Positions 1,615 through 64,000 of a DNA stretch of 64,000 bases are shown one piece after another. The notes below the pieces were generated by a model. The model was not told the origin of the DNA, ran no database searches, and was given only the letters and a program-made list of their open reading frames with translations. Positions within the stretch are counted from its first letter, which is position 1; each line of letters opens with the position of its first letter. Position numbers and translations under genes: made by a program. Source of the stretch: Bugula neritina (lineage: Eukaryota; Bryozoa; Gymnolaemata; Cheilostomatida; Bugulidae); contig OZ037769.1 of the NCBI GenBank assembly GCA_964035545.1, positions 13,973,133 through 14,037,132 on the forward strand. The letters run 5' to 3'.

Positions 1615-4600
1615 TATGTATATATATAATCTTCTAAGTTTTTTAGCACCTTTTTCATCTTGCGTGGTTGGCTGCCCTTTAAAAAAAAATTTAAAATTGT
1701 CTATTATTTTGTTGAAGGAATTCCTTTTGCCAAACCACCTACCGGGGAGAGAAGATTTAATAAGCCTGAGGCCTTCGGATCCTTTGAAGGAGGAAGTTTA
1801 AAGGCTACAGCTCCAGGCTTCGCATGTCCACAGATGATAGCAAATGTTTATAAGCTAGGAGATGAAGATTGTCTGTTTTTGAATATTTACACTCCTAACC
1901 CAACTGGAAATCTAGTGAGTGTCTATGTAAATATTTTATTGAAAAATGTTAGCAACGGTTGTCAGTAAAAAATCTAAAATGATAAAAACTTTATATAGTA
2001 TCAGCAATAATGAAAAAATTTCAGAACAATAATTGAAAATTAATAATTTTATTTCTGTAATTTATTTAAATTTAATTACCCTTAAACTGCACTATCTTTT
2101 GAGTTCTTTAGCACCTCTTTCACCTTGTGCAGTTGTTTGCTTTTTAGGAAAACATTTTAAATGTATTTTTTTCTTCTTTTCAGGCGGTTATGATTTTCAT
2201 CCATGGAGGAGGGTTTTATCAAGGCGCATCACATTTTTACGATCCAAGCGTGATGGTGGCGCAAGGAGAGGTTGTTGTTGTTACATTTAATTATAGAATA
2301 GGAGCTCTTGGCTTTATGTCAACCGGAGACGACAAACTTCCCGGAAACTATGGACTCTGGGATCAGAAGTTGGCCATAGAATGGGTAAAGGAGAACATAG
2401 AAGATTATGGTGGTGACACCAATAATATCACCCTCTTCGGCCAATCATCTGGGGCTATGTCAGCCATGTTTCAAATGCTGTCGCCAGCTAATAATAACTC
2501 TCTTTTTCAAAGAGCGCTACTTCAGAGTGGCTCTGCGTTGCTCTCCGCAAATATTGTCCAAGACCCTAAGCAGGTACACCAACAAGTAATTTTTTCCTTA
2601 GGCTGCGAAATCGATTCAGAGTTGAAAAAATGTCTTCAGAGTAAAAGTATGGAAGAGATTCAAGTTGCGTCGCAATTCAATTTTATACCCATGAACAGCC
2701 TTGTTGTAGTTGACAATGATTTTTTTTATCATGGCGTTTTAGCGATTCTTGATGCATTTACGCAGCATGGCAATTCTTCGCATACGAGAGATTTGGTTGG
2801 TAATTTTGGGACGTATGATTTGTTTAGCGGATGGAATGATCAAGAAGGAATATTTATACTTGGTGTTTTGCCATTAATTGATTCAAGCTTCAATAATGTT
2901 AGTGAAGGATTTTCCGAAGAAATGCTTTTTAAGGCTTTGCAATATTTTCCTTTTACAAATCAAGGATTTGTTTCCACATCCAAATCTGCCTCTTTCATAA
3001 ATGACCTGTTAATGCAGTACTATACCAACAAACAAGATAACCTAACTACAGCAAGTAAAGACCGACTAAGAAGATTCATTGAATTCATAGGTACTCTACC
3101 AGTCTTAAACATTTTAAATCATTGTATTGTTATTTTTGTTGGTCACCCATTGAGCTAAAGTCTTTGAATTTTTGAATATCTGAAAAAAGCTATCAGAGCT
3201 TTCTAATCTAAATTTTTAGTTAAAAAAATACAATTTTTTTATTCATTTATTTGTGGCATGCAGGTGAAGAACAATCTTTACTAGTCATTTTTTACGCTCT
3301 TGATTATGCATAACTTCTTAAAGATAATCATAATTCATAGTTGTATAGTAATTACGTGTTGAAGCAACATTATTTTTAATTGGCCAGATAGTGTAGCCAA
3401 TGAAAGCTCACGTTAAATATTTATAAGATTTTCAGTGCTATTAATGCTACTAACTGTATATTTTATTTTGTCCTAAAAATTTAGGTGTGTTTTTAGGTGA
3501 TGAGTTTTTTGTTATGCCTACAATTCAGCACTTAAAGTTACACAGCGCCATATCTGATAAGAACACGTTTGCATATGAATTCAAGCAACCTATAAGCAGA
3601 CCTGCTGACACTCTGGCATGGCTCAGAACTGGAGCAAATCACGCTGACGAAGGTTTATTCGTGTTTGGTTTCAGAAACAAAGGTAAACTCAAACAAAAAG
3701 CTGTCAACTGTTTAGTTCAGCTCGTTATTTAGAACGTGCTTTTCAACAGAGTCTGTAGCAAAAAGTAAAGAAACCTAGCTTTTGATAATTTTAGGATGTT
3801 TTTGTAAAACTTGCTAATTAACAACAATTTTTAATAGCTAAAAGGCCCAATTATATTTATTAAATTAGGCTAACATTTCTGCTGTTGAAATTTTAGTAAC
3901 TATAACTTTGTTAATGACACTAAAAACTTGAAAATAATATTATAGCATTACAACTTTTAACTTTTTAATCAAAAACTGCTCCAAATACTTTGTTTGACTA
4001 ATCATGTTTTTTTTTAAATTGACTGAAATTTGATGTATTTTTAAATTTTTTATATATAATCACCAGTTGCTAATTTTTTAATAATTTGATGTTATTTCAG
4101 CAAAAAATTTATTGGATATTTGGTGATACAGTAAATTCATAGCATCATGTAAATTATTTAATCAGAGTAGAAATGCCTACAATTAATAATCTTTCTGTAG
4201 TACCTGGGTTTTCCTATACCTATAATGAGGAAGAAAAAGAACTTTCCGATAAGATGATTCTTCACTGGACAAACTTTGCTAAGACAGGGTGAGCTATCTT
4301 CAATATTTGATTAGTAATCAATAAATTAATTAACTGCAGAAGATTGAAATTTACAGCATTTTATCCAAGCAGTTTAACAATTCAAGTCAAATATAATGAT
4401 AGTAATAATGGTGTCTATATAGCACATGGTATGGCTGCAGTTACAAGTGATCCTGTAGTGACATGTAGTGACATGTGGTATGGTTGTGCTTGAAAGTGGC
4501 AGAGTTAATTTGCTAATATTTGATGTGTATGTAGAGAAAATAGTGTGGTATTTATGGTAACATGTAGTTTGATCATGGCAACAAAACTTAATGTTATTTA

Positions 4601-6587: not shown

Positions 6588-9500
6588 CTACTTGTTAATT
6601 TTCTTTCTGAAATGGATGATGACGCCAATTAGGATGATACAAATGACAGCAAGTAGTACTGATAACACAAGGGTTGTAGTGATCGCAACGTCAGCTTCCT
6701 GTGCTGTCAGCTGCAGCAGTCCATTCAAATACTCATCTGAAACAGAAAGATAATTGTTTGCTAATAAAAGATATAAAAACTTATTACTTAATTTGAGTTG
6801 TCTTCTCTTGGACTTTTCTCTCATGAAAAGTTTTTTGACCATATTCATTATTCAAATATTATTTAGTGTAAATTGAACTTAAATATTATCTATGGATATA
6901 CTGATAAAAAAATTGAGAGTTGCATTGCATGCATTATAATCTTATTAGCCTCAAAGATTGCAACAAGATGCCATTTAATATGTAAGAAATTGGCTACAAG
7001 AAATATTGATAGTTGTCTTCTCTTGAATTTCTACCTTATGAGAATTTTTTAAGCATGTTAATACTTCCAATATTAAAAAGACAATAATATTAAATATTAC
7101 ATATTACCAATAAATATAATATTAAATATAACAAGTTGATATTTAATATTTCACAAGCTAAAGAATTTCAAGGAATGATCAAAGTTAGCATTTGCAGTTT
7201 AAATGAAATTAATGAAAGCTAAAAGTAGTGCAGCAACAAGAGGTGGGAATTGTCTTACTTTTGGAATTGCCCTCTGTGCTCATAGAAATATCAACTGGAG
7301 TTGTTTCCTCTAAGTCAACTTTGTTCTCAACCTCTTCACTATTCATTGCTGCAGAGTTAATAGCCAAAAGAATTTGCGCCTGACTGCTGTATGGGTAAGA
7401 CAACTTCTCAAATTCCCCAGTTTTCAGTCTGGTGTAGGCCTGAGTGCTGGGATATTCAAACTCTGTGTAGTCAGTGTTTGATGGATCTCTAAAATGGAAG
7501 GTTATAATTTAAACAATACTAGTTATTTATAAAACAAGTAAAAGCAAAGAACTTATAATATATAGAAAGTTTGTAGAGTGAAATAATGAGAAAATTTATA
7601 GCTGTAGATGTCTTACCCAGTTTTAGCAAAACTTGTCCATTGTTGTATCATTCGCTGAGAAAGCTGTTTTTCTACTTCAGTAGCATTGTAATATTCAGCT
7701 CCCGCGACTACAAATATAGATAAGAATTATTAAATATAAAATTTTGCATTCAGCTTTAAATATTTCAGAAAATGATATATGCAGTTTCAAAAAACATTAT
7801 TTTTTCAACTTCAAAAGCCAATATTTACACTCACGCAAGTTTATAGTGGCTTTCCCTGTGAGAAACCCCTGATAGAAAGGGCTTTTGTTAAAGCGGGCTA
7901 AGGACTTATTTAGATGAAGCACAGGAGCAATTATGACTGAATGCTCTTCCTAACATCACTGATGGCCTTTGTCGGGGTTTGAACCCATGACCTTGTGTTT
8001 ACTAAGCAAACGCTTTAACCCCTACAGCAAGGCTGCTTCTCAAAAACAAATATTTAGGCTACAGTTAAATAAACCTCTTCTGTAAAGTTAAAATGAATTG
8101 AATAACATATCCCAACGCACGTGTTTCCTGGAACCCAAACACAAATTTAGCCTCTTCTGTGTGCGAGGCTCCAGTTTTCAGCCAGGTGGGGTACAAGCTG
8201 AACTGCCCGTTGCCTCTGACATTGTGACTAAACTCATAGGCAAAGGTGCTTTTATTTGAGAGGGCGCTGTGCAACTGCAGGTGATGGACTGTGGGAAGAA
8301 TAAACTTTACTTCTCCTGTAAAAGAAGTAAAAAGACAGATTCTTATATACGTTGTGCATGTTGCTACCAGTAGATTTCTTATGATAAAAGTTAAAATATT
8401 GTATTCTATTTTGTGTTTTTACTGTGTTGCAAGTAATGGTAATATAAGAGAAAACATAAAAAATATATTTGTAGAGCTTATAAAAGAAATTATATGCTTA
8501 TATTGTTTGCATAAGTTCTACAAATATCATTCTGTCATTTATGTACTGCCAAGTTTATTAGTTTTTGAATTTTTTATAGAAATAAAGCCAAGATTTTAGT
8601 GTTAATCTATATTACTAAATTTTTTTTCAGCAGCAAAGCTCTTTGATAGCAATAAAAACATGTGAAATTGAATTTATATTTCTATAAGAATGAGCTTTTA
8701 CCAAATATTTCATATATAACATAATTTGATTCACTAATTTGTCGGAATTACTTCATACTGTAAAAAATTCATAAAGTAAACTAGACAATAAAAGCAGCGT
8801 TTTAGTTATACTTCAAAAAATATTTTAAGCCCATATTAACTCACCAAATATTTTAGTGAAAATTTCCAATCTCTTTTCTTCAATCGTTCTATGCTTGCTG
8901 TTGAGCTTTTCATCGTCATTTAAATAAAATTCAGGTAAAATGTTTGCTATTAGTTCAACCAGTTCTTTATTGTTGCCTATTTTGCTAAAGTCTTGAAATA
9001 CAGGCACTTTCAACGCTTCACGTAGCGCCTTCGCAGAAAGACCCGTCTGAATGTTAGAAAAATTAACTTCCTCCACTAAGCGGAGTAAAACTAATAAACC
9101 AAATAGACCTTCTTGGTCCGTCCAACCACTGAACAAGTCAAAACTGCCGAAGTTTGCCAACATTGATTTCGTGGTCTCGGACAAGCCAGTACGAGCAAAG
9201 CTATCCATGATTTCATAGCCGTCATAGTGCAAAAAATCTTTATCAACCACTGGGTAAAATATTAAATTGAATCTTGGACTAGTCGCAGCCATAATTTCAT
9301 CACTAGTTTTACTTGATAAACACTCTTGAGGCTGTGCTGTTGAGGAGCAGTTTAGACGCTGAAGAACTGATTGGGAGAAGAAAGCTGGAGCTTGACTGAT
9401 TGAGGCAGCGGCAAGGGCTGACCCGCTTTGAGCTATGACTCGCTGAAATAGTGTGTTGTTGTTTAATGGAGACAGCATTTGAAATGTTGCTGATATCGAG

Positions 9501-11039
9501 CCAGCTGATTGGCCGAAAATGGTGATACTATCGGAATTTCCGCCGTAATCTTCTATGTTATCTTTTACCCATTCTATGGCCAACTTCTGATCCCAGAGTC
9601 CATAATTGCCGGGAAGTTTGTCGTCTCCGGTTGACATGAACCCCAGAGCTCCAACTCGGTAGTTGATGGTAACCACGACGACATCTCCAGATGCTACTAT
9701 TGCTGAAGGGTTGTCTTCCATACCAGAACCTCGGATAAAGCCTCCACCATGGATCCAAATCATTACAGTCTAAAGCAGAAATCAGTAAACAATATAATCT
9801 AATAGTCACCAAAAGTGTTTAAATTAGCTGTTGTAGTCTACTAAATAAAAAGGTGAAACCTATTATTTGTTGACCTTATGTATTAATCTAGTCTCCACCA
9901 ATATTCTGATTAGCAACTTTTTTGCCTAGCACATATACAATGATAAGAAGAAATTTTCAAAACCCAGTTTTCAATCTCAGTGTGACAATTAAATTTAATG
10001 CTTGGTAAGAACGCATTATTTTCATCAATATTGAAGCCACCACAATCTCCAAACAGACGTAGCATTTAGATGTCTGGTAGCTGGGTTTTACTTATAGCTA
10101 ACATGTCTCTAACCTGCAGCTTAAAAAAATATCCAAACTATTTCTCGTTTCAGTTACAGTTTAAAAAAAGTTATCTAATAAAACAAACTGCAAGATGATA
10201 AACCTATCACTTTTTATTTAAAATATTGAGTAAATATTTTCAGGATTTTTGTGTATTTTTGGTAATAATTACTTGCTGGAGTAGAGTTGCCTACCCTATT
10301 AGTGGAGCTGTTTGATGTGTAGATGTTTAGGAAGAGACAGTCTTCACTTCCAATAGTCGTGGAGCCGTCATGTTGAAGACACGAAGATCCACCAGTTGTA
10401 GCGTTTAACTTTCCTTTGAAACTGCCATACGGTTGTGGCTTAGCAAATCTAAGCGAGCCAGTTGGTGGTTTGGCAAAGGGAATTCCTGTAATTTTTTGTA
10501 TCTATTTGTTAGTTAGAGACAGCTTTTCTTAAAGTTTATTAAATTTCATTATTTTCTACATCTTCAGAGTAAATGATCTATAATTGCCGAGGTTACAAGT
10601 TTCACATTTATTTAAATTACATGCACAAGTAAAAGTCATATACAATGTTATGTATATGTATATCTGTATAATATATTATTGTAATAAAAACAACAGCTAC
10701 TATTATGATTTAATGGAAAATATCAATGAAATATAGCGTTTTAACAAACTTGTTTTAATATACCAAAAAAAATTCTAAATTTAAAACAATGTTGAAATTT
10801 GAAATATAGCCAAATGACTCTATGAAGTGCTTAAAGTATCAAAATTAGATGGTAGAAAAGACAATGCATTGTAGATATTACCGAATCTCACCCAAGTATT
10901 TGTAAACTAGTGTGCCGTTAAAGTCCTTGCTGATGCCTTCTACTTCGCCAAGTCTTGTTTGCAATAGTAAGTCAATGCACATGCAATATTGAACTAAAGA
11001 GACAATTGAAAAAAATACCAGCACTTTGAAATCATTCAT
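6588..11039 (-). CDS. Membrane-anchored type-B carboxylesterase-like protein 2 (7 exons, about 642 aa)
   Basis: Exons, in transcript order on the - strand: 11039-10892, 10485-10295, 9769-8845, 8315-8121, 7707-7617, 7488-7259, 6736-6588. I started at the ATG at 11039, not the in-frame upstream ATG at 11126, because it begins a clean signal peptide (MNDFKVLVFFSIVSLV...). The hydrolase domain has HGGG, nucleophile Ser201 (GQSAG), Glu333 (GWTDQEG) and His473 (GASHTEE). The family Cys pairs are retained, and the choline-site Trp is absent. The stalk carries an acidic Glu/Thr stretch, followed by a helix at about 614-635 and a short basic tail (HFRKKINK). It is the first of three head-to-tail - strand genes and converges with gene 1. 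Likely a surface or secretory-pathway esterase; substrate not predictable. Confidence 0.88.
7830..8040 (-). repeat. tRNA-derived SINE, family 1
   Basis: Lies in intron 4 of esterase 2, in the same orientation as the gene's transcription. It contains the conserved tail ('tttccctgtgagaaacccct' on the + strand), the middle block 'gaatgctcttcctaacatc' and the tRNA-like head ending 'ctacagcaaggctgcttct'. The B box is changed to 'gtttgaaccc'. Confidence 0.8.
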
Positions 11040-13497: not shown

Positions 13498-16381
13498 CAC
13501 ACACAAATGCAAAAGCAAATGCAAAAGCAAATGCATGAGCAAATGCATGAGCAAATGCATGAGCAAATGCATGAGCAAATGCATTAGCAAACGCACAAAA
13601 ACAGAAAATATAAGTTTCACTAAGGGCAATTTATTTGGGTGCAAACTGTTTATGATACATGTTTAATTTTTATATTATTAGCATCAATAATCATTTGACT
13701 TACAATTTACGTTGAATCCAAACACAAACAAAATCTCATCTGCATGGACAGCGCCAGTTCTTAGCCAATCAGGTCCTTCTTCAAACAATCCAGGGCTGTT
13801 ACGTTTGTGTGCAAACTCATAGGCAAATGTGTTTCTACTTGAAACAGCACTGTGCAACTGTAGCTGATGGATTGTGGGTAGGGTCAAAATCACATCACCT
13901 ACAAAAGACCAATAGGAATTATTTATTTGGCTGTAGAATCTGAATAAAATTGTTTCAAATAGAAAATCAACCAGTGTATCATTTTATAGCACTTTTTCAA
14001 AAATGACATAGACGATTGTCATACAGTTAATATGTAAACATAGAAACCTTACCAGCTATTTGAGTAAAAATCTCTAGTCGTTTCTCATCCATTGTGCGGT
14101 TAGAGCTCAAAAGCTGGGAGTGGCTGTTTAAGTAGAATATTGGTAGGATATCTGTGATTAGGTCAATGAATCTTTCGTCACCAAGAAGGCCAGTTGGTGG
14201 AAAAACAATCAATTTCAAAGCCTCATTGAATATATTTTCGGAGAGCCCGCTTTCAACTGCAGAACTATTGAGATTTCTGGCTATGGGGTCAAGGAGAAAC
14301 AAACCTTCTTGATTATTCCAGCCGCTAAGCAAATCATAGTCACCAAAGTTTGCTAGCATTGACTTGGTTTGTTCTGAGGGGCCTGTACGAGTAAAGCTAT
14401 CCAGAAGACGAGAGAAGTCATGGGGAAGCAAATCTCCATCTACCACTGGACCTAAGTACATATTATCGTTCGTAGCCATCAGTATTTCTCGGCTATCTGC
14501 ATTTTGAAGACATGTCTTTAAACTGTCATTTACTGAGCAGTTGACCTGTTGAACCACAGAGTTAGATACACTCAAGGGTTGAGGCATGTACAAAGTAGTC
14601 GCCAGACCTGAACCGCTTTCTGTTATGACTCGTTGAAACAGCGAGTTGTTGTTCAAGGGTGAAAGCATGTGGAAAGAAGCTGAAAAAGCTCCGGCAGATT
14701 CACCAAAGAGCGTGATGCTGTCGGGATTTCCACCATAATCTTCTATGTTATTCTTCACCCATTCTATGGCCAACTTCTGATCCCAGAGTCCATAATTGCC
14801 GGGAAGTTTGTCATCTCCGGTTGACAGGAACCCGAGAGCTCCTAAGCGATAGTTGATGGTAACCACGACAACATCTCCCTTGGCAACAATAACTGACGCA
14901 TCATACCCACTTCCTGCGCCGACAGTGAACCCTCCACCATGGATCCAAATCATTACGCTCTGAAAGTGCAAAAATGCTCTATGTAAACCTTAAAAGATGA
15001 AGTGTCTATTTAAAAGCATAAAGCCAAAAAAACCACAAATAATGCTGAAAAAGATGACTATGATATCTGGATTTGGCTTATATCAAGATGGTGAGTATTA
15101 CGTGCACAAGCCAGATAAGGCAGAAAGCTCAAGATATAAAAATGATTCAGTGAAAATTACAATGCAATAAATAGGAAAATGTAGAGCTTTTCATCATTCT
15201 ATAATTACTTCAATTAGTAATGCAGACAGCCAAACCATAATTTTGCTAGAAGGTATTAGCAAACAGTATAACACAACTCCAAAAGGAACAAAACACTGCA
15301 TGCCTCTAACATAAAACACTGTTTATATTTTCACTTTGCTATACGTCTACAGATTAAAGATTAGGAGTTGTCTTTTAAAGATAACATGGAATATTATTTA
15401 TGCATAGTTTTGGGTATGTCAAGTCAATAAATTAGCTTAGTCACAATATGTTGTATCATGCAGAAGTAGTTTAAATAAAAATTCAGTTTTATTAACATGA
15501 CTGCAATGTCAATGTCAATAATCAAAGATAAGTTGAGTAAATCAAAAATATATTATTATATATTATTATATGCATTTAGTTCTACTTTTTAACCTTTATA
15601 ATCAGTGTTAGTATGGGCAGCAGATATAAATGCTTTATAAAACTTTATGTGAGTCTAGTAAAACATAAAGTGTACTAGGTGTAAATAAACTTTAAACTCT
15701 GGATCACAAGGTAACAAATATGCTAACAGAGAAAGTAATACAGAAAGCTCAATTAGCTACCAAGAAACAGCTGCATGTTTAAAGAAACTTACTTTTTTGT
15801 ACTGAGAATTTGCTGTGTAGATATTTAAACTAAGACAGTCTTCGCTGCCAATTACAGCAACACTGGGTCTTTGCAGGCATGCTGAGCCATAGACTGTGGC
15901 GTTTCGCTTTTCTGCACCGAAATTACCAAATGGTTTCGGCTTGGCAAATCTAAGACTACCAATCGGAGGCTTGGCATATGGAATACCTGACCAATGAAGA
16001 CAAAAATGAATGAATGAAACAAATGATTAAAGTTGTAAATAAATGATTGACAATTGATTTTGTTTATAATTGTGTTTCAATGTTTATAGTCAATTCTTAA
16101 AATCTTGATGTTTTACAAAGCAGTGCTTACATGCATGTTTCTAAATTTGTTGACAAATAAGCAGGGAATGTAACTCCAAAGTCTGCCTCATTATTAAAAA
16201 AAATTTAATTAGAAGTTAGAATATTTTTGTTTAACTTACCTAAATATTTGTGCACTGCTGTACCCTCTACATTTTCACTAATTCCTTCTATTTTACCAAG
16301 TTTTGTCTGCAACGATGTTGACATTCCATATTGTAGTAGTAGAGAGAATAAAACCAACGAGAAAACTTTAGTGTAGGTCAT
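12090..16381 (-). CDS. Membrane-anchored type-B carboxylesterase-like protein 3 (7 exons, about 635 aa)
   Basis: Exons in transcript order: 16381-16240, 15986-15793, 14959-14053, 13898-13704, 13260-13173, 12688-12468, 12250-12090. Exon 1 is short: its ATG starts MTYTKVFSLVLFSLLLQYG, a signal peptide, followed by LQTKLGKIEGISENV as in the paralogues. The hydrolase domain has HGGGF, nucleophile Ser200 in the classical GESAG, Glu330 (GWNNQEG) and His466 (GAVHADE). Exon 3 is 907 bp, identical in length to exon 3 of gene 1. The C-terminal exon gives YEFLNGMLTL, a helix at about 603-623 and the tail QLKRKIAQSKIN. A large compound microsatellite lies in intron 4. A catalytically complete, membrane-tethered carboxylesterase of unknown substrate. 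Confidence 0.88.
13391..13600. repeat. Compound microsatellite: (CA/CACG)n plus 12-bp units
   Basis: About 115 bp of CA-, CACG- and ACGC-type repeats (13391-13504) pass directly into a 12-bp array 'aaatgcatgagc' / 'aaatgcaaaagc' up to about 13600. It lies in intron 4 of esterase 3. Open frames on both strands here are low-complexity artefacts. Confidence 0.9.
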
Positions 16382-20900: not shown

Positions 20901-23366
20901 ACTTCCAACAGCTTGTGGTTCTCACTTTTACCGTCACTCAAGAACTGTCTTGGAGAACTCAGGTAATATTGAATGATGACATCAGTAAGAAAGTCAAGTG
21001 TTGTCTTACTACCAGCAAAGTACGGAAATATGGTTTGTTGCAAGGTGGACGAAAGTGCCATTCGAGAGATGCCTTCGCTAATCGGTTGGCCTGTTAGTGT
21101 TTCCAGTAATTCTTTATTAACTAATGCAAACACTAGACCTTCTTGATTGTTCCAACCACCGAGTAAGTCATACTTTGCAAAGTTAGAAAACTTGTTCAGC
21201 TGTTGCGTATCTAAAGCAGCTACGTTTGTAAGAACTTCACTAAGTTCGTCAAGAAGAAACTCGCCATCAAGTACTGGAAGGAACATCATTTGAGAATCTT
21301 GGCTCTGGAGAAGTTTGTCAACACTTTTTCTTTTCAAACATTTAACTAAATCGGTATTATTATCACATCCTACATTGCTAGCTACTCGCTGCATGACCCA
21401 CGATGGGTTACGCTCTAGAAAGTTGATCCCAAACCCTGCTCCACTCTCCATTATTGCTCTCTGGAACAAGTCTGGGCTGTTTTGTGAGGTGAACATTTGG
21501 TAGGATATGGACATGCTTCCGGCCGACTCTCCAAACAATGTTATTGCATTTGGGTTACCACCGTAGTCTGCGATGTTGTCCTTGACCCATTGAATAGCCA
21601 GTTTCTGATCCCAAAGTCCATAATTTCCAGGAAGCCTTGAATCCCCCGTGGAGAGGAAGCCAAACAATCCAAGCCTGTAGTTAATTGTAACCACGACAAC
21701 GTCTGCCTGAGAAGACAGCAACTCTGAGTGGTAAGTGCTGCCTGCGCCAAACTGGAAACTTCCTCCATGGATCCAAATCATAACTGCCTGTAAATATAAA
21801 GCATTGTATACATTGTATTAGCATACATTGCATGCAAGTTATATTACTATGCATATTACATTCTATAATTACTATATATACACATTAAATTATATTACTA
21901 TACATATTATTACGTTAAATTGCTATACATGTACATTGCACTAATATTCATATATATACATTATAGTATTGCTACTTTACATATACATTATACTATACAC
22001 ATTACATTAAATTACTATTCATATTACACTATGTAACTATAAACATAAACTACATGTACGTACAATCTACATATTGAATACTTGCTGCCCAATAACTACA
22101 CTTGCTTACTCTAGTTATAAATTTACGAGTTGGCGCTTGACTTATCTTAAAAGGTTTAATTGGCAGCACTATGCAACACAGATTTTGTGATAAATATATA
22201 TAATATGCAAGTAAAATCAAATTCATATAAAACTAAATATTTGTTAGATAAATTAAACTTTATAAAACTACATATATATATACGCAGGTAACACAAACTT
22301 TATAAAACTACATACATGCAGGTAAAATGAGCTTTATAAAACTACATATATATGCAGGTAAAATAAGCTTTATAAAACTACATATATGCAGGTAAAATGA
22401 GCTTCATAAAACTACATATATGCAGGTAAAATAAGCTTTTTAAAACTACATATATATGCAGGTAAAATGAGCTTCATAAAACTACATATATGCAGGTAAA
22501 ATGAGCTTCATAAAACTACATATATGCAGGTAAAATGAGCTTCATAAAACTACATATATATGCAGGTAAAATGAGTACTCGGCAATCTTACCCTGCTAGA
22601 GTTCTGACCAGTTCTGTATGGAGTGTATATGTTGAGGTAGAGACAGTCTTCACTCTGATTTTGGCTTGTCTTTGGACTCTGCCTACAGTCTGGTCCAAAC
22701 CGAGTAGCATTGAGACTTGCACCAGAGAAGCCACCATATGGCTGTGGCTTAGCAAACCTGAGATTTTCTACTGGAGGTTTAGCATATGGGATCCCTGTCA
22801 ATATAGAATGTTTTTCATAATAATGCTATCTGAAAAAACTTTGCCCCCACTGAGATCCATTTAGGCCTCTACCTTGTAAGCAGGTGCGCTAACTATTACA
22901 CTATTACTACTCCTTCAGTTTTTAGGCTCCCTTGGCTTCTCAACTCCCTTGGAGTACTTCAACTGACCTGCACTAAAAGCCAAAATAGCTCGAAAAACTT
23001 GCCCTCGCTAGGATTTGAACTCGAGACCTTCGGCTTTGCAAGCAACTGCACTAACCATCACCCCACAGAGACCACTGCGTAATCACTGCACTAAACTATC
23101 TACTATTAGTTCTCACTAACAAGTATTGGAAAGTATTGAGAAAATATGCTCATTTAATTTCTAATGGTAATCTTGGATGGCAATAGTTATAGTGTGGAAA
23201 TAATTACATTACCTAAAAATTTTTGAACTTCTTTTCCGTTGACATAAGTACTCAGCCCTGCAACATTTCCGAGTAAAGTTTGTAGCGTGTATTCTTGTGC
23301 TGCAGAAGTTGTGAGAAGTGCTTTGAATAGCAAACCAAAAAGAAGAAACTTTACGGAGGCAGCCAT
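17958..23366 (-). CDS. Membrane-anchored type-B carboxylesterase-like protein 4 with poly-Thr stalk (7 exons, about 682 aa)
   Basis: Exons in transcript order: 23366-23213, 22794-22592, 21787-20884, 20351-20109, 19816-19741, 19000-18744, 18169-17958. I chose the second in-frame ATG, which opens a signal peptide (MAASVKFLLFGLLFKALL). The hydrolase domain has HGGS in place of HGGG, nucleophile Ser207 (GESAG), Glu335 (GWNNQEG) and His475 (GANHGEE), with Cys pairs EDCLYLNIY and GCDNNTDLVKC. The stalk (about 583-611) has ten consecutive Thr and then Thr/Ser/Pro, which suggests a mucin-like O-glycosylated spacer. The helix is at about 631-653. The 29-residue tail is rich in Lys, Glu, Leu and Asn and may be helical. 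It is the most divergent and longest paralogue. The exon 5 donor (gttggt) and exon 6 donor (gtcagc) are weak but keep the paralogue frame. Repeats fill intron 2. Confidence 0.87.
19050..19240 (+). repeat. Decayed tRNA-derived SINE
   Basis: 'tgtagcctactggttaattc' resembles an A box and 'attggttcggatct' a B box, followed by weak similarity to the family 1 body ('ctatagtcata'). Strongly diverged, in intron 5 of esterase 4. Confidence 0.45.
22257..22576. repeat. 33-36-bp minisatellite in intron 2 of esterase 4
   Basis: About nine tandem copies of a unit whose + strand core is 'ataaaactacatatatgcag' followed by 'gtaaaatgagctt'. The array ends about 15 bp from the exon 2 donor (22592/22591). The copies nearest the exon are the most alike. 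Confidence 0.9.
22835..22915 (-). repeat. tRNA-like SINE head, family 2 (decayed)
   Basis: 'cttgtaagcaggtgcgctaa' with 'aaaaaactttgcccccactg' on its 5' side (+ strand order) matches the family 2 layout. The B box is mutated ('agatccatttagg'). In intron 1 of esterase 4. Confidence 0.55.
22990..23075 (-). repeat. tRNA-like SINE head, family 2
   Basis: + strand order: 'cgaaaaacttgccctcgcta', B box complement 'ggatttgaactc', 'cggctttgcaagc', 'ctaaccatcacc'. It is a second copy of the same family about 90 bp from the first, in the same orientation. Confidence 0.65.
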
Positions 23367-30781: not shown

Positions 30782-48325
<17,544 letters not shown>

Positions 48326-53534: not shown

Positions 53535-56500
53535 ATGGCGATATTAACACAATTCTACCTCTTACAATACAAGAGCTGGAAGCTACAGTTTAGGAAGAAG
53601 CTCGTCACTGCAGTAGAGATACTTGTACCGATTTTGCTTTGCCTGGTGATGATGGCTATCCGGGTAGCGGTGAAAGAGGAAACAGTTGATACTGCTACAC
53701 ACTACACTCCATATTCTGTGGACGAATGGCCATCTGAGCTCTTGTTATCTTTGGACCCCAGTCTAAATGGAAACTATGGCTTGGGGTACACACCTAAGAC
53801 ACCCGTTACCAAGAGAATCATGGAGGAGATGAGTGGGAATCTAGATGTCCTTGGCCTTAAACTTTCTGAAAACTGTAAGTGATATGATTAAACGTGTAGT
53901 AAGAATAGATTGGTTATTTATAAAAACTGTCATCTGTAGTACAGTGGCTACAGTGCTGACCTAGTAAAATGTCATGGGGTCAATAGTTCAAGTGGTGTTA
54001 GGAAAAGCAATCAGTAATAATTGCTCCTGCATCACATCAGAAAACGTCTTTTCCAGCTAATAAAAAATTTTGCTATCAAGGTTTCTCACAGAGATAATAT
54101 AATGATTATCAGCTCTAGTGAGTGGTATAATTTAAACACAGGAGTATAAATACAAGTAAAATTTTAACTCACAAACTTTCTTAAGCAGCTTGAACTTTCG
54201 GCAAGCAAATTTGTCTAAATCACTAACCCTGAGAGAACCGCTGATGAGAAAGATTTTTTGTTGAATCGGAGTAAAAAATTATTCAGATAAAGCACAGGAG
54301 CAATTATGACTCAATGCTCTTCCTAAAATCACCATCGGCCATTGTCGCCATTTGAACCCATGATTTTGTGCTTACTAATCAAACGATCTAACACCTAAGC
54401 CACTGCTGTTCTCTTTGTTAGGCAGTGTAATAACACTATTTTACTTATTGCAGTGTATGGAGCAGACACAGAAGAGAAGATGGTGGAACATCTCATATTT
54501 CATAATGAGACTCTAGACAATGAAAAGATCTATTTAGCTGGAATTGTGTTTGACAATCCTGAAGACTATGTTACAGATATACCATTCAACATCTCTTATA
54601 CTATCAGGTGAATAATTTTATTAGCTTTATCCAATTTGTGTCATTAATCAATGGTAAAGTTTGAAATTAAAGGTGCAGCCAATATTATAGGCAGCATTTT
54701 ATACTTTTCATATTGTTTGCTGCTTTATTCAGTTTTAGCTGCTCGTTATTCCTCAAGTGTGTTTCAATGTTGAGATCATTAGCTAATAAATGTTCATATC
54801 TCCAGCCAACTCACTGTGTGTGGCAAGTCGTTCAAGCAACAGATTTGTACCCACATGCAGAAGATCTGCGTCATGTGGCCCCACACTAACTCAATCTTGT
54901 ATTGTTGCAGTAATGATGGATATTTTATTAGGACATTAGAAAAACTTCAACGTAATTATACAACTTTTTTTTACACGACGTTTATTTGATATTAGGCATA
55001 GTTTTAATACTTTCACTATTACCTTGTCTTTTCATCACTGCGAGTAAGTCAGCTAAGACAAAACAATATACATTTGTGCAAACCACCCAAATATAGCTGC
55101 CTTGGTTAACATTTAAATTAAACATTTTGACTTTGTAGAACGTTGGTTATAGCTGCCGAATTTATAAAACCAAGTATTAGTTTAGGTCTGTTGACTTTGA
55201 GAGCCACGTATTACTTGAGACTGTTGACTTTGAGAGCCACGTATTACTTGAAACTGTTGATTTTGAGACCCAGGTATTACTTGAAACTGTTGATTTTGAG
55301 ACCCAGGTATTACTTGAAACTTTTGATTTTGTAGAACCAAGTATAATTTGAGGTCTGCTGGCTACGCTTCAGCTGAATGGACCAATAGAAAAGTATTTCC
55401 AGATGAAGTCAACAATTTTCCAGCCTTTGCAAATTATTCAGGTGAGGAGACAACTTCCCAAAAAGGAATCGATAATATTTTGCATAGTTTTATGAGTGTA
55501 GACTCGCTCTAGTAACTTAGAAATTGTGATAATTTATAGCTATATACAATACCATTCACATGAAATAAAATGAAGCAAAATGTGTACTGTAAAAAGATAA
55601 TTTGATTGTACTGTTAACTTTATTATATATTTTATATATTGCAGTGTACAATGCTGAAGGTTTCTTACTTTTTCAACACGCCTTGCACAAAAGTATTTTG
55701 TCAATATTGAATCCTGATTGGTCGAAGTCCAATGTAAGTGTAAACCTGGAACAGATTCCATCCCCTCCCTACACCACCGACACCTTCATCACCGTCATCA
55801 AAGTGAACCTACCGTTCATCATAATCATTTGCTTCATCTTCCTAGCTCTGCAGATACCAAAGGAAGTAACTTATGAAAAACAAATGAAACTGAAGGTAAT
55901 TTATTGTTTTTTTATTAATTTAAATTTGATTTAATTTAATATGCAGTTTTATAGTTGAAGTTCAAAAAAGTAACGTTTTTACACAAATTTGGAGCATAGC
56001 AAACTTTTGCCATGTTTAAAAGTTATCTAAAATAGTAGTTATTGTCTCTTGATTATGATCGTAAGTAAACAAGTTTTGTTTTTGCTAATTTTAACTATGC
56101 ACACAAAGGAACCCACATATAATGTATAATAAAGCTCGGATAAAATTAGTAACACTTTGTTCTTAATTGTTACTAGCATGTTTTAACTTGTCAATTTACT
56201 TTAATTCTAAATATATTTTTGTTTATTTTTTGTTTGCTTCTGTTTGCTTGCAAGTAGGCAAGAGTCCTGGTTTTAGCATCTATGCATTATAAATTTAGTG
56301 TAGAGGTTATATAAGTTGTCAATAGAGTTGCTCGCTTGCTTTAGCAACTATAGTAATATAAACTCTGGTTTCGAACAGACACTCTAAAAGGACTATACAA
56401 AAGTGAATGAATTGCTTTGTTACTTACCAAACACTACTGGGGAAAATATTGATATTTAATGCAAAATTAATTGCCATGGAAGTTGAACAAACTTCAGTCA

Positions 56501-59500
56501 ATAATATGAAAACAGTTAAGAAAATTTGAACTTAAAGACATACTTACTTCAATTTATATTAAAAACTTGTTGTGACAGTTAGCAGCTAGAAGATTTTTAA
56601 TTATTTTGAATCAAAATAACAATTGCTAAAAAATGAAGTGCATCAACTGTTGATTTGGTATACATCTTTTTTAAAGGCTGTAAAAGTATGAGTTATGTTT
56701 TGATGATAATTATTAGGTTTACGCAGCATCTGCTAAAATTTTTCTACTTTTCATTGTACAGTTCACTGTATTAATATTCTTGCTTGTAAAATGTTTTACA
56801 AATTAATTTTATTTAAGCTATAATACATAGATCTGGTTATAAACAACATAACTACCTATTCTACCGCTTATACTCGTTTACAAAAATGACGCAATGTCAG
56901 AGGAAAATTACTGTAATTGCTCGAATAATTGCGCCCCTACGCGTGATGGTTACTGAATGGTCATCGCGTAGGGCCTACAGTTACCCCTACGCGTAGGGAA
57001 TCCGAAGAGAATACAAGAGAATACGATTTCAAGTGTTGTCAATTTTTTTCAGGAGTCAATGCGTATGATGGGAATGTCAAACTGGCTGCAGTGGTTCTCC
57101 TGGTACTTCAAGTACTTTGTGTTTTTCTTCTTCATAACTTTATTTATGTCACTCATTCTTACTTCACCTGCTAAAGTAAGTATAAACAATTGGATGTTTA
57201 TTTGAAAACATAAATACTGCATAGAGTATTTGAACTCACAATATAATTTTAAAAATTGCCAGAGGAATCTAGAAAGGATTGTCCTTGCCTACTCTAACTT
57301 CACTCTGATCTGGTTCTTCTTCCTTCTCTATGGAATGGCCTTGACCTCATTCTGTTTTGTCATCAGCGCCATCTTTAATAAAGGTAACTTTTAAAAAAAA
57401 TTATTTTACTACTTTTCATATATTCACTGCACTTCCATTGCTTCACATTATAAATGCTGTAAAAATAAATTTGCGGTTGCTGTTAGAATAAGCTTGTATA
57501 GTTGTGGTTTTATTGATGCAGCTGTGTCTAAACATCAAATGAAAAATCTATAATAGAAAGCTTGGAAAGGCAGTGATTTAATATTCCATAACTGCTACTA
57601 GCAAACATTTAAATTTTATCTAATGAGAAGTAAGCGCTATAACTTACTATACATACCTTGTCATTCACTATTATTTAGTTTAATTAATTTTGTTATCAAA
57701 AAAGTTGGCTCCCAATAGATGTTTCTTTTATACTTATTGTAAGATTCATATATCAAGATATTACATAAAGTGTTTTGCCATGAATATAAAACTACGTAGG
57801 GCCTATGTATAATTTCGCAAATTATGCGTTTAGCTGAATCTTCCTATATTTAAATATTTTATTTTCTACTTTGTATACCAGAAAATAACAAACTAAAAAT
57901 AACCAACTAGAACACAAATTAAGCATACTTTTACAATATATTCTAAAACAGTGTAGTTTGGCTTAGTATAGAGTTCTTAGGGATTAGAATGATACATGGC
58001 CGTGTGTTCAAATATTATTAATGAAAGAGCATTTTGGTTACCTTAGGCAACGGCAGATATATATTGCCAGCATAGTGAGGGGCTCAATATTAATCCCAAT
58101 CTATAATAATCAAAAAATTTCTCACAGAGACATATAGTTTAAGATAATGTTGCAGTTTGATGACGTTATGTCTTGTAGCCAACGTGGCAGCAGCTGCCGG
58201 AGGAATAATTTACTTCCTGTCATACGTCCCGTTCTTCTTCATCGTCACGCCGTATGAAAACATGTCTGCCGGAGCTAAAACAGCGTGCTGTCTGGACTTC
58301 AACCTGGCCATGTCTATTGGTATGATAATCATAGGAGATGCTGAGAAAACAGGTTTGACTTCACTCTGTTTTAACTTGAGTAGCCTGTTCTGTTGGTTTT
58401 CTACTAAACTGGAATATATTATAATATTGTTTCAACAATTAAGCTCTTGAATTAAATTAGTTAAATAACTTGGAGTAGACAGTAAATGATTTTAAGTAGT
58501 TTTCTTTGTTATAGTGAGCCCAATAATAATTGTAGGCAGTTGCACAAATTTAAAAAGTTGAATGTTTAGTAGTAAGTTTCTTTGAGTTTCTAATTTTAAT
58601 TATAACAAAGCGTATCAAAATACACAGGAAATTTAAGTCCTATAATCTACAAAATAATTACATTTCCTAAACTTTGCATACAATAGATACAAACTTGATA
58701 TAGTTAATTGCTAGATGCATATGTTGTTAGTTGATTTTATTCATGATTTGTTTTAAAAACTATACTCAGTATTTAATTTTTTTTTCTCAGATGCTGGAGT
58801 ACAGTGGGGGACGCTGAATCAGCCACCCACTGTTGATGATAACTTTGCATTTGGACAAGTACTTTATATGCTGTTTGTTGATTGCATCTTGCACTCACTT
58901 CTCCTTTGGTATATTGATGCAGTTTTCCCAGGTGACTATGGAGTTGCCCAACCTCCTTATTTCTTTGTATTGGTGAGTAGTAGTCTAACGATAACATAAT
59001 TTGTAGATTGAGGAACAAAAAAGTTTAGTATAATAACATTTAAAAAAAATACTATTTTTTAAGTTATTTTGTATAAAATTAGCAAAAAATAAAATACAGT
59101 ATTTGACTTATAAATAGATGTGGGTAAAAAACATTTTGGTGCTAAAATCCTGTCCTACTATCATCCACTAGAATAAAAATTCAGTTGGCAACTGGATGAT
59201 TCAAACACATGCAACGATTGGTCTTGTGAATACTAGAAATGAAATATTCTAGAATAAGCTAAATATAATATTGTTAAATCATGCAAATATATGAACGTCC
59301 AAACCACCAGGCAGTTTGTTCACAGTATTTTGTCGCCGCTCTAATTGTTGCATTACGAAATCCTACTCAATACTGAATCACACTTTGTTTAACAACTTGT
59401 TTACTTCTGTAGCCATCATACTGGTGCGGAACTAAACCTGAGACAGTTCTGATAGGCACTGGTTCTAAAGTGGATGTGGAAGATGTAGCAGTTGAGAAAG

Positions 59501-62500
59501 TTCAACAGTTTGAACCTGACCCAGTAAACCTGACTGCAGGAATTCAGATCAAAAGCCTGAGGAAAAAGTTTAAAAGTAATGGAGTCACCAAGGTAGGCAG
59601 TTTGTATCGAAACATAATTCATGTTTTCATGAAAAGTTAGAAACAATTTATTTTGAGGTGAAGTCAGATTATTTAAATATACATGCATAAGTACTCTGCC
59701 TGTATCTCAGAAAAGCACTTTGGACTCTCATTGTCTCAATACATAATCACTATGCGTGGGTAAAACATGTCATAATAACACAACTGTAGTGCTGCATTAC
59801 TCAATCATATTTAATGGTGTAGAAATTTGCGGATAGAAATAATATGAAAGATTTGTTCATTAAACTTTATTAAGCTCAGCCTTGAAACAAAGCTGTTTGT
59901 TCAGATTGCAGTAAATGACGTCAGCTTGAATATGTATGAAGGGCAAATCACAGCACTTCTTGGTCATAACGGAGCTGGAAAAACCACAACAATGTTTATG
60001 CTGACTGGTGAGAAGTTTACAAGTATTTTCTGGTTTCACACATTTTGCCTAATTTTGTTTACTTATTGTTGAAATTGCAAAAAATTTTGGCTATAAATAT
60101 AATTTTTCTAATAATTATAATATATATGCTATAAGTTAAAGCATTGCATTAGTCAGTGTTAAAAATTTGATGGTTTAAAAATGAAGCTTTTGAATCTGTT
60201 TTTAAACATCAATTAGTAACTTGAAATGTTGTTTCTAAATAATAGACTTAAAACAAGAAACTAATTATTTTTGATCTTATCAACAGGTTTTTTCCCACCA
60301 ACCAGCGGCACAGCTATTATAAATGGCTATGACATCAGGAAAGACTTGGCAAGTGTTAGATCCAGCCTAGGACTGTGTCCTCAGCATGACATCCTGTTTG
60401 ACAACCTCACTGTTGAAGAGCATCTCTACTTCTTTGCCAAGGTAAGTTTTTTAAAGTGACTAAACTAATGCGTGCATGTTGTGTAAAGCTGCTTGACTCA
60501 AAAATTGTGCAATCATAAAAAAGTTCCTATAAAATAAATATAAAATGAAACTCCGATATACTGGATTTGCAAAAATTTATTTTTTATAACAGCCAACTCA
60601 ATCGAATGATATTTGTTCTGTAAGAGATAAAACATTCAATGATCCATTTTTGCTTATCCAAAATATCTAACATCGTAAATTATTCTTATGACTTGTTAAT
60701 CATTTTGGATGAATTTTTTGACTTAAATATGAAAAACCAATAATTCATTTTTTTAAAAAATTATAACAAATTTCTATTTTTTTATATATCGAGATAATTT
60801 TATTCTTTAGCTGAAGCACTGCCCAGCATCTGACATTGAGAAACAAATAGACTATTATGTCAATAGCCTAGGACTAGGGGAGAAGAGGAAAGAGTTTGCT
60901 CACACCTTGTCTGGAGGTCAGAAGAGGAAGTTATCTGTGGGAATCGCTCTGATTGGAGACAGCAAGGTGAGACAATTCACACATGCTGTTGGAAAAAAAT
61001 TGTCTTTTTTCATTATTGCTGTTAAAGTTTTACCACTTTCATGATACATACCGTCAAATTTAAATTTTAATCAACACAATAATACATTAATCGGTTCCTA
61101 TATATATTTAATTGGCAAATAAAAATGTTCTTTAAAGTATATTTGTAAATAATCGTTTACACAACGCAGTAATGCTAGTGAGCTAAAAGATGACTTTTAT
61201 AACTTATTGAAATAAGAGCTATTATGCCTGATATGTTTTCAAGTCATATTTTTATATAAATTCAAGACACTGTGAAAAACAAGAGAAAACCTTAAAAAAG
61301 CCATTAGACGCCAAACTATTTCTGATGTGCATGTATTATACACACCGTTTGCACTACTAAACTAATACTTGTATTGCGTGAGAATTTTTTACTTGAAAGC
61401 TTAAACTAAAAAAAGCAAAGCAACTTATTTGGATGTAAATTATTTGGTTTTCAGGTAGTAATACTAGATGAACCAACATCTGGCATGGATCCATCAGCTA
61501 GGAGACACATGTGGGATCTGTTACAATCCCAAAGAGCTGGAAGGACAATTCTACTGACTACACATTTCATGGATGAGGCAGACCATCTTGGTGATAGGAT
61601 TGCTATACTTGCTGACGGAGTAGTGCAGTGCTGTGGCAGCTCCATCTTCCTCAAGAAGAGATACGGTATGAGAGTGTATTGCTATATATTATGGTGACGT
61701 GGTATGAGAGTGTGTTGCTATGGTGACGTGGTATGAGAGTGTTGCTATGGTGAAGTGGTACTTTGTCATAAAACTTGGCTCTTTAAAATACTGAGCTGCG
61801 TTTTTTCAATGAATATTGAAAAATATTTATCACTAAAAAATCTATCAAATAACTATTTGCAGCATGTTTTGTGAGGCGATTCCATCGTAACTATTTAACC
61901 TTGTATACTTTTAATTATCCAATAGCAAAACATTTAGCCTATAAACTAATAACTATCAGTATGAAAAATGTGTTTTATTATATATAACACTGTTGCTTTT
62001 AAGTTTCAAAGCTGTGCATGCCTGTATTTATATAAGCATGCTTAACAAAACGAGTATTTAGACATAATTTCTTTTAGCTTTATTGTTTAATTAGGGAACC
62101 AAGTGTAGAAAATCTAAATAAGCCATATAAACCTCATACATTCTACAACCACGTACTGTAATGAATAATTTAAACAAGTAATTTTTAACATGTGATAGTT
62201 GAGGTTGTAAACAATACATTTCAGGGGCAGGGTATCATATGGTGATGACTAAAGATGAAAACTGTGATGTGAGTAAAGTAACTGAACTTCTCCAGAGACA
62301 CGTACCAGAAAGTAAACTGGAAGGTGAGACTCTAGCTTGCATTCATTTCTGCTTCTTCTGCATTTGCCGCTGCAATATTTGCAGCATCACTATAATACAA
62401 TAACAATAACCTTATAATATTGAAAAATAAACTTATCAGTGGCTACTGAAAAATGAAAAAAGTTAGTAATTTGTTGATAGGCTAAGTAGCTATATATATG

Positions 62501-63633
62501 GAAAGAAATTCAAAACAAAAGTCACGTCTAAACCTCTGGCTGCTTCTTACAACTACCTTGTGATGCTAACTACATATTGCTTTAAGTATTTTTAATTTTA
62601 TATTACTTGCTTGGAAAACTATGCAATTAGTGTTATAAACATACTAATGAAACTTTATATATGCATTGCGTTACATATTACTTATAAATAGCATTTTGTT
62701 AGGCATTATGTAACCATTAATTGGCTGTTTTAATTTTATTTCTTTTCGTATTCTATTTTAACCAGTATTCTATTTTAACCAGTATTCTATTTTAACCAGT
62801 ATTCTATTTTAACCAGTATTCTATTTTAACCAGTATTCTATTTTGACCAGTATTCTATTTTAACCAGTATTCTATTTTAACCAGCGGACATCGGGGCAGA
62901 ACTTTCATACATATTGCCTGAAAACTACGTCTCTGCTTTCCCTCAGATGTTTGCTGAAATTGAGAAAGAAAAAGAATCTCTTGGAATTCTGGGATATGGA
63001 GCATCTGTAACCACCATGGAAGAAGTTTTTATGAAGTTAGTCAAACTTCTAAAACACATGTTTTAAAATCCTAAAGTTTTAAAAACTTACAGTTTCAAAT
63101 CCTCAATTTATGTCAAGATAACTCAAAATAACGCTACTTGTGCTAACAAAACTTTTGTCCAACTATATTATATGTGATTTTCTTAATTAGCTTTTAAAAC
63201 ATTGGGGTATTTTCGATGATCGATAATGGCTGTTTTAGAGTTGGAGAAGATTCTATAAACTCTGAAGAAGAAGGGGTTGATGATATGGCGGTAGAAGCAA
63301 GTAAGCTAAAAACACAGTATTTAGAGATTGAAAAATGCATGGCTTTTACACTTTAAGCCTTCACGAAAGTTTATATTTCAAAGTAAAGGATATATGAAGT
63401 ATTGTTGGAACGAGTTTGCTAAGATAATTAGATCTGTTACCCACTTCCCCCCCCCCCCCAAGAATCTTGTGATTTTCCAGCCATGAAAATAATATATTGC
63501 AGCAAGTATTTGGCTGGTTCTTTGCTTAACAGTTCTCACTTTTCAGTAATATTAGAGTTTGATAAGATAGTAAAGTGTTGGCTTTTATTTGTCACTAAAA
63601 TATTTTATAAATTTGCAGATGAAGAAGCTACAG
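53535..63633 (+). CDS. ABCA3-like: ABCA3-like ABC transporter, copy B (partial, first 17 exons, 855 residues in window)
   Basis: Exons: 53535-53874, 54454-54607, 55353-55441, 55645-55895, 57053-57175, 57263-57383, 58179-58352, 58791-58972, 59413-59592, 59905-60007, 60287-60441, 60811-60966, 61455-61665, 62225-62323, 62885-63035, 63239-63300, 63619-63633. The first 16 have exactly the lengths of copy A's exons 1-16, and the frame is open throughout. TMD1 and NBD1 are complete ([28 protein letters not shown]). In the 211-bp exon 13 I count five differences from copy A, all synonymous. The last visible exon is a predicted 15-bp microexon (NEEAT), where copy A goes directly to ETKEIVK. TMD2 and NBD2 lie beyond the window. 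Likely a functional tandem paralogue and lipid transporter. No frameshift or stop was found. Confidence 0.88.
53935..54110 (+). repeat. Decayed SINE in intron 1, shared with copy A
   Basis: Same position and text as the relic at 31200-31400 ('gtgctgacctagtaaaatg', 'aggtttctcacagagataat'). Confidence 0.6.
54200..54418 (-). repeat. tRNA-derived SINE, family 1, in intron 1 of copy B only
   Basis: + strand order: 'aaccctgagagaaccgctga', 'caatgctcttcctaaaatc', 'catttgaacccatgattttg', 'aacacctaagccactgctg'. Copy A has no counterpart, so it inserted after the duplication. Confidence 0.75.
55140..55352. repeat. 33-bp minisatellite abutting exon 3 acceptor, copy B
   Basis: Tandem units such as 'acttgaaactgttgattttg' plus 'agacccaggtatt', the middle two identical over 33 bp. 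The final, diverged unit supplies the exon 3 acceptor ('aatttgag', exon from 55353). An earlier unit reads 'tttaggtctgttgac', which resembles acceptor plus exon start ('tttgaggtctgctggc'). Confidence 0.85.
56934..56999. repeat. GC-rich palindromic cluster in intron 4 of copy B
   Basis: Three copies of 'cctacgcg' or its complement within 66 bp, including the perfect palindrome 'ccctacgcgtaggg' (56985-56998), in otherwise AT-rich intron DNA about 55 bp upstream of exon 5. Copy A lacks it. Confidence 0.7.
61663..61757. repeat. Tandem copies of the exon 13 donor region, copy B
   Basis: Three units of 'acg(tg)gtatgagagtg' + 'ttgctatggtg', the first overlapping the real exon 13 donor (61665/61666). 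Copy A has two units. Confidence 0.8.
62749..62884. repeat. 8 x 17-bp repeat of a 3' splice acceptor in intron 14 of copy B
   Basis: Eight consecutive units of 'tattctattttaaccag' with one substitution (unit 6 has 'ttttgaccag'). The array ends exactly at the exon 15 acceptor AG (62884). Copy A has a single such motif, 'tattctgttttaaccag' (39930-39946). Confidence 0.97.
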
Positions 63634-64000
63634 GTAAGAAAACATAGCATAGCTGAATGAAGATAATATTAGGCATTGCACATATGGGTCTTTGCAAGTG
63701 CACTAGATATAAATAGAGCGGATTGAATCACATAGCAAATGTACACGATAAATATGATGCACGTGTTTAAAGTTTGTTAAGGCATAAATGGTGTTGCTGA
63801 TATTTTTTATTAAGTAATATTATTGAAATTTTGCAAGTGCAAATACATACTAAATTGATTTTTCCATGCCAACTGTGTCCAGAGAATCATATGTGTAGTG
63901 GGTGTCATAAACTTTATAAGGTGTAATGTGTCCAAGTGTCTCTAAGATGTCAGATGTCTCAGGGCACGTCTAGGGTATCATATGTGTCAGTGTGTCTCTA
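63634..64000. other. Start of the next intron of ABCA copy B
   Basis: No further exon is recognised before the window ends. The last 120 bp repeat short 'gtgtc', 'tgtctc' and 'atcatatgtgt' motifs, the possible start of another tandem repeat. Confidence 0.4.

Follow-up and report, generated by a model that had tools for sequence, protein, structure and literature searches.

The analysed window, a 64,000-nt stretch of the Bugula neritina genome, carries two tandem ABCA3-like genes on the plus strand, referred to as copies A and B. Models of 28 exons were built for both from A/B alignments and the flanking sequence, and in these models an AG acceptor precedes exons 2–28 and a GT donor follows exons 1–27. 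Copy A lies at 30782..48324; its last modelled exon ends before the stop codon with two bases over, which leaves exon 15 unaffected. For copy B, exons 1–16 and part of intron 16 lie within the window (53535..64000), and the model runs beyond the window end to 71823 (window numbering). Copy B has an open frame of 1,728 residues over 28 exons, closed by a stop codon, and contains no internal stop, frameshift or lost splice site. Two NGAGKTTT and two SGGxKRKL motifs occur in its translation, which we take to mark the two nucleotide-binding domains; with the full-length frame and both of these domains, the model is that of an ABCA-type ABC transporter. The closest proteins among the best 120 of 7,664 matches were ABCA3-like proteins of the bryozoan Watersipora subatra (60%–64% identity), and the best match of the peptide encoded by exons 15–16 was a solved ABCA3 (E = 1.3e-16). 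Copies A and B differ by a dS of 0.190 and a dN of 0.033 (dN/dS 0.175), a low ratio that was mostly built up before the repeat array described below arose and says little about the present state of copy B.

Some further features were recorded along the window. Several related genes in both orientations occupy positions 1–23500 and have in common a long exon (about 930 bp; 2151–3083 on the plus strand; 8837–9766, 14051–14974, and 20903–21814 on the minus strand). A 34-bp array (22198–22575, with 8.6 copies at 22278–22575) closely follows, on the downstream side, an exon on the minus strand (about 22607–22801), which, judged from its peptide, presumably belongs to a carboxylesterase-type gene, and the array seems to stop short of the donor. 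Within its 1,859 nt, intron 16 of copy B includes a possible 15-bp micro-exon at 63619–63633 (ATGAAGAAGCTACAG, bordered by AG and GTAAG) that would keep the phase and for which inspection of copy A by eye gave no counterpart, as well as a large, degenerate, GTGTC-rich array at 63917–64476, that is, extending beyond the window end.

The feature under study is found at the 3′-end of intron 14 of copy B. Exon 14 (62225..62323, plus strand) ends in phase 1 before GTGAGACT, and exon 15 (62885..63035, plus strand, phase 1) is immediately preceded by eight head-to-tail units of 17 bp (TATTCTATTTTAACCAG; 62749..62884, plus strand). Each unit ends with AG, and the AG of the last one (62883–62884) is the acceptor of exon 15, so that the edge of the unit coincides with the canonical 3′ splice site of a coding exon. 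Seven of the eight units are identical, and the only variant one, unit 6 (TTTTGACCAG; 62834..62850, plus strand), deviates by a single substitution. Tandem Repeats Finder reported the array at 62748–62884 with a period of 17, 8.1 copies, 98% matches, and a score of 267; the edge is ambiguous by one base because a G flanks the array on either side. With these values it falls among minisatellites, taken here as three or more tandem copies of units of about 10–60 bp. None of 100 dinucleotide shuffles reached nine or more unit matches at up to three mismatches (the shuffle maximum was four), and when the two-unit word was searched as a pattern across the 215.8-Mb genome, its five matches all overlapped within this same array. 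Direct reading, Tandem Repeats Finder and the shuffles thus agree with the earlier note, which had described eight tandem 17-bp units at 62749–62884. The note had also assigned a single unit to copy A, and this is what was found: the homologous unit TATTCTGTTTTAACCAG at 39930..39946 (plus strand), about 23 kb from the array, forms the acceptor of copy A exon 15 (39947..40097, plus strand, phase 1). The 31 nt directly 5′ of unit 1 (62718..62748, plus strand) are identical in the two copies and represent a candidate ancestral branch-point region.

Since everything that follows depends on the position of the acceptor and on the number of units, both were examined. The exon 14/15 junction was crossed without a gap within six residues in all of the best 120 of 7,664 homologous proteins, which makes the start of exon 15 firm. 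Two more distant paralogues on C1, compared by eye and only for intron position and phase, show an AG at the corresponding site with the phase unchanged, and no array is visible there. The last AG of the array had been named as the acceptor of exon 15, and both this assignment and the exon numbering agree with the 28-exon model. It is therefore hardly credible that exon 15 has another start and that the array is mere intron sequence, all the more as each of the seven other AGs of the array would lead to a stop codon (see below). Tandem repeats are prone to mis-assembly, and the eight units might in principle be an assembly error. However, an array of 136 bp is far shorter than HiFi long reads, and unit 6 bears a variant of its own. 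The assembly concerned, tzBugNeri2.1, has been described as built from about 132-fold HiFi reads with a QV of 53.7 (PMC11480708), and we regard an error of this kind as very improbable.

The mean pairwise difference between the units is approximately 1.5% (7 of the 28 pairs differ, over 17 sites), whereas copies A and B differ by about 22% in the adjoining intron stretch, with gaps counted. This disparity indicates that growth or homogenisation of the array was recent. As to the direction of change, the simplest reading of the sequences is that the array expanded in copy B after the gene duplication, as had been proposed in the earlier note; contraction in copy A instead is a less simple alternative, so this part of the proposal stands as the preferred reading rather than as the sole one.

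Splicing to the AGs of units 7 to 1 would add 17, 34, 51, 68, 85, 102, and 119 nt, respectively, to the message. All seven additions lead to a premature stop at codons 801–833, at least 2,447 nt upstream of the last exon–exon junction, so that each alternative choice would introduce a premature stop, as in splicing coupled to nonsense-mediated decay. The suggestion that the upstream AGs are potential decoys was therefore borne out, since the use of any of them would wreck the message. It had also been stated that only additions in multiples of 51 bp keep the frame, which is correct and yet incomplete: the frame-keeping additions of 51 and 102 nt contain a TAA as well, consequently no upstream AG would be productive.

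Whether the units can act as acceptors was considered from their inner structure. Each of them contains a branch-point-like YTNAY motif (TTAAC, or TTGAC in unit 6), located 4 nt from the AG of its own unit and 21 nt from that of the next one, thus the array appears as a row of overlapping complete acceptors. Similar motifs are present in the 31 identical nucleotides upstream, where two motifs have their A at 27 and 32 nt from the first AG; a third one, at the left edge, has it at 45 nt. The two nearer ones, the candidate old branch-point region, are about 150 nt away from the last AG. According to the scanning rule (PMC1431707, Genome Biol. 2006), the first AG after the branch point is taken and AGs within about 12–15 nt are bypassed. 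If the old branch point were still used, this rule would predict splicing to unit 1, while a branch point inside unit 7, aided by the exon, would predict splicing to unit 8; the two rules disagree on the AG to be chosen. The eight AGs were also scored with an acceptor matrix, for which the 52 acceptors outside exon 15 in copies A and B served as the training set. Unit 8 scored 6.26, unit 6 5.74, units 2–5 and 7 4.37, and unit 1 2.49, the top score of unit 8 being owed to its exon bases. The exon 15 acceptor of copy A scored 3.95, the fourth weakest of 54. All eight units are weak compared with the median of 9.6 for the 54 acceptors, a value inflated by the fact that 52 of them were scored within their own training set. 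Upstream AGs are in themselves not unusual for these genes: the median acceptor has six AGs in its last 150 nt, and the AG-free stretch before exon 15 of copy B measures 17 nt against a median of 28 nt, with four other acceptors having equal or shorter ones. In the predicted RNA fold, the array stretch was less structured than all of 200 shuffles (z = +4.57) and contained no strong hairpin, so no AG is obviously hidden, and concealment of the decoy AGs by RNA structure was rejected as an explanation.

That the array at exon 15 is a singular case was not supported, because other splice sites of the two genes also lie in or at arrays. In copy B, a 33-bp array of 4.9 copies (55188..55351, plus strand) extends over the acceptor of exon 3, which starts at 55335, and the last of its five copies consists of the acceptor and the first 17 nt of the exon. 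An older, more diverged array (31829..32051, plus strand) covers the acceptor of exon 3 in copy A, where the exon starts at 32040. The region of the exon 13 donor in copy B includes three degenerate copies (61666..61760, plus strand), of which Tandem Repeats Finder reports only 61690–61760; the true donor lies outside the reported array, which begins 24 nt behind it. In copy A, a 27-bp array of 2.2 copies starts at the exon 13 donor (38599..38657, plus strand; Tandem Repeats Finder). Alternative sites would be unproductive here, too: all 26 tested AGs located 12–179 nt 5′ of exon 3 (12 in copy B and 14 in copy A) and all six tested GTAT/GTAC donors within 109 nt 3′ of exon 13 (four in B, two in A) lead to early stops.

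To put these cases in proportion, arrays were counted over both genes with Tandem Repeats Finder (score of at least 50, period of at least 10), leaving out the ten intron bases next to each exon. Arrays cover 1,468 of the 24,325 intron bases (6.0%) and 77 of the 10,427 exon bases (0.7%). Three of the 54 acceptors and one of the 54 donors are within arrays; as the copies are not independent, the acceptors amount to 2 of 27 by position. Acceptors are thus neither enriched in arrays nor depleted of them relative to intron bases, and random hits suffice to account for the observed number. Enrichment of local duplication at acceptors was likewise rejected, as it was found at 2 of the 54 acceptors and at 41 of 740 random intron positions at 72% identity, and the corresponding numbers were 2 and 35 at 76%, 1 and 30 at 80%, and 0 and 26 at 90%. 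In a genome sample of twenty 10-kb pieces taken at 1-Mb steps on C1 (200 kb), arrays made up 6.7% of the sequence, and one of the ten good arrays (at least 2.8 copies and 85% matches) had an acceptor-like unit. Three splice sites of one gene are in or at arrays, with acceptors struck at about the rate of intron bases, which suggests that minisatellites are not kept clear of splice sites in this genome.

An older annotation of the species is also of relevance to the exon 14/15 junction. No protein named Bugula neritina was among the best 120 of 7,664 matches listed or among 18 matches obtained elsewhere, but a third protein search with 19 matches included two older Bugula neritina models, P0150 (691 aa) and P0139 (922 aa), both broken at this junction. 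P0150 runs on from exon 14 into intron 14 and ends there, P0139 begins at a Met inside exon 15, and their source contigs are listed with equal length. At 57 sites where copies A and B differ, P0139 is B-like at 46, A-like at 7, and neither at 4, and it is identical to copy B at 894 of 922 residues (97%), making it the likely copy B orthologue. Of 24 such sites within residues 116–664 of P0150, 15 are B-like, 8 A-like, and 1 like neither, but by eye the intron 14 tail of this model resembles copy B. The precise coincidence of this break in the likely orthologue with the exon 14/15 junction is suggestive only, and exons 2, 3, and 6 are missing from the two models as well. The Virginia draft, from which the two models come, was annotated by Augustus with transcriptome hints after repeats had been masked (PMC7576161), thus a masked array could itself cause the break. 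The array may therefore be present in the Virginia draft, too; alternatively, the break of the older models could mean mis-splicing, which would speak against tolerance of the array.

Considering these results, we think that the array is probably a young intronic minisatellite that is mostly tolerated, the exon-adjacent acceptor being used and leakage to the upstream AGs degraded. The observed array, with its edges and homogeneity, probably arose in copy B when a 17-bp segment that ended at the last base of the intron was duplicated in tandem. The motif 21 nt before the next AG may provide each unit with a branch point, and unit 8, which touches exon 15, would be dominant in most transcripts, favoured by exon definition and by the first bases of the exon. 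Leakage to units 1–7 would give the computed premature stops and presumably nonsense-mediated decay, by which the array perhaps lowers the output of copy B slightly; no special function needs to be assumed. The open frame of copy B, the ungapped exon 14/15 junction of the 120 proteins, the top score of unit 8, the sufficiency of random hits and the persistence of the exon 3 acceptor array in both copies were counted in favour of tolerance, as was the behaviour of the human ABCA7 repeat (PMC5954066), where the first of at least 12 repeated donors is canonical and one unit is retained at a level of about 2%. Against it stand the old branch-point region, which lies near the first AG, so scanning would pick unit 1 if that region were still in use, the break in the older annotation, and the weakness of all eight units as acceptors.

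In a different reading, which we consider rather unlikely, the array would be a hypomorphic lesion. Splicing would then be directed by the old branch point to unit 1 or to several AGs, most copy B transcripts would carry a premature stop, and copy A would cover the function while copy B is on its way out. The 31 identical nucleotides keep the putative branch-point region 27–32 nt from the first AG, where the first-AG rule (PMC1431707) would apply, the seven upstream AGs each yield a stop, and the older annotation breaks the likely orthologue just here. Nevertheless, the 28-exon model of copy B is intact, the likely orthologue from the Virginia draft shares 97% of its 922 residues with copy B, an acceptor array has been kept at exon 3 in both copies, and unit 8 outscores the other seven locally. 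Less probable still, and in our opinion doubtful, is a rheostat in which unit number determines what share of copy B transcripts is productive and what share decays, this ratio being used or selected. The earlier note had raised a switch that tunes output as one of two possibilities, and no direct evidence for such a switch was found. The unproductive nature of all seven decoys and the lack of structure that would obviously hide an AG are in line with it, and length of the human ABCA7 VNTR goes with exon 19 skipping and lower expression (PMC5954066). On the other side, arrays are not enriched at acceptors, this one is young and without known conservation, and retention of one unit in ABCA7 is constant with length (PMC5954066). 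In its heritable form, to which we likewise give little credence, each added unit would be a further complete but unproductive acceptor, so the output of copy B would fall with unit number while that of copy A stayed constant; if this were true, ABCA genes of two distant phyla would be tuned by a minisatellite over a splice site, with the ABCA7 repeat as the mirror case. The tolerated minisatellite thus remains our preferred reading. Whichever AG is used, eight nearly identical acceptors beside a one-unit paralogue provide a natural test between the first AG after the branch point and the AG touching the exon.

Several known systems resemble the array in part. Among titles and abstract beginnings of the open-licence literature, there was no case of a coding-exon acceptor multiplied in tandem. 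NAGNAG and other subtle tandem acceptors also involve competition between adjacent AGs, but these lie 2–12 nt apart (PMC2878309), while in copy B eight AGs are spaced by 17 nt, outside that range, and all seven alternatives would be unproductive. Tandem duplication over splice-site sequence has been described as a route of intron gain, in which coding sequence with a proto-splice site is duplicated (Lehmann et al., 2010, PMC2891723); there, exonic sequence was duplicated and a new intron arose, whereas here the duplicated sequence is intronic and no intron was gained. The AG exclusion zone and branch-point scanning (PMC1431707) supply the rule that the array would either break or satisfy: no AG is expected between branch point and acceptor save close ones, and copy B offers an AG every 17 nt. 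The closest counterpart comes from human ABCA7 (De Roeck et al., 2018, PMC5954066), whose intron 18 carries a VNTR of about 12 to 427 units; the unit is 25 bp long and opens with the two bases of the exon 18 donor. Retention of one unit, at about 2%, causes a frameshift and is independent of length there, while skipping of exon 19 rises with length. Both cases concern the ABCA family, in both a canonical splice site forms the edge of the unit, and in both the use of an extra unit leads to a premature stop, by frameshift in ABCA7. They differ in that a donor is amplified in ABCA7 and an acceptor, in eight units and at another exon and intron, in copy B, and in that variation in unit number and a link between length and exon 19 skipping are on record for ABCA7. 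We infer that the two arrays originated independently. The copy B array is, accordingly, the acceptor-side mirror of the donor-side ABCA7 VNTR that is already in print, and together they indicate that a splice site itself can become part of a repeat unit.
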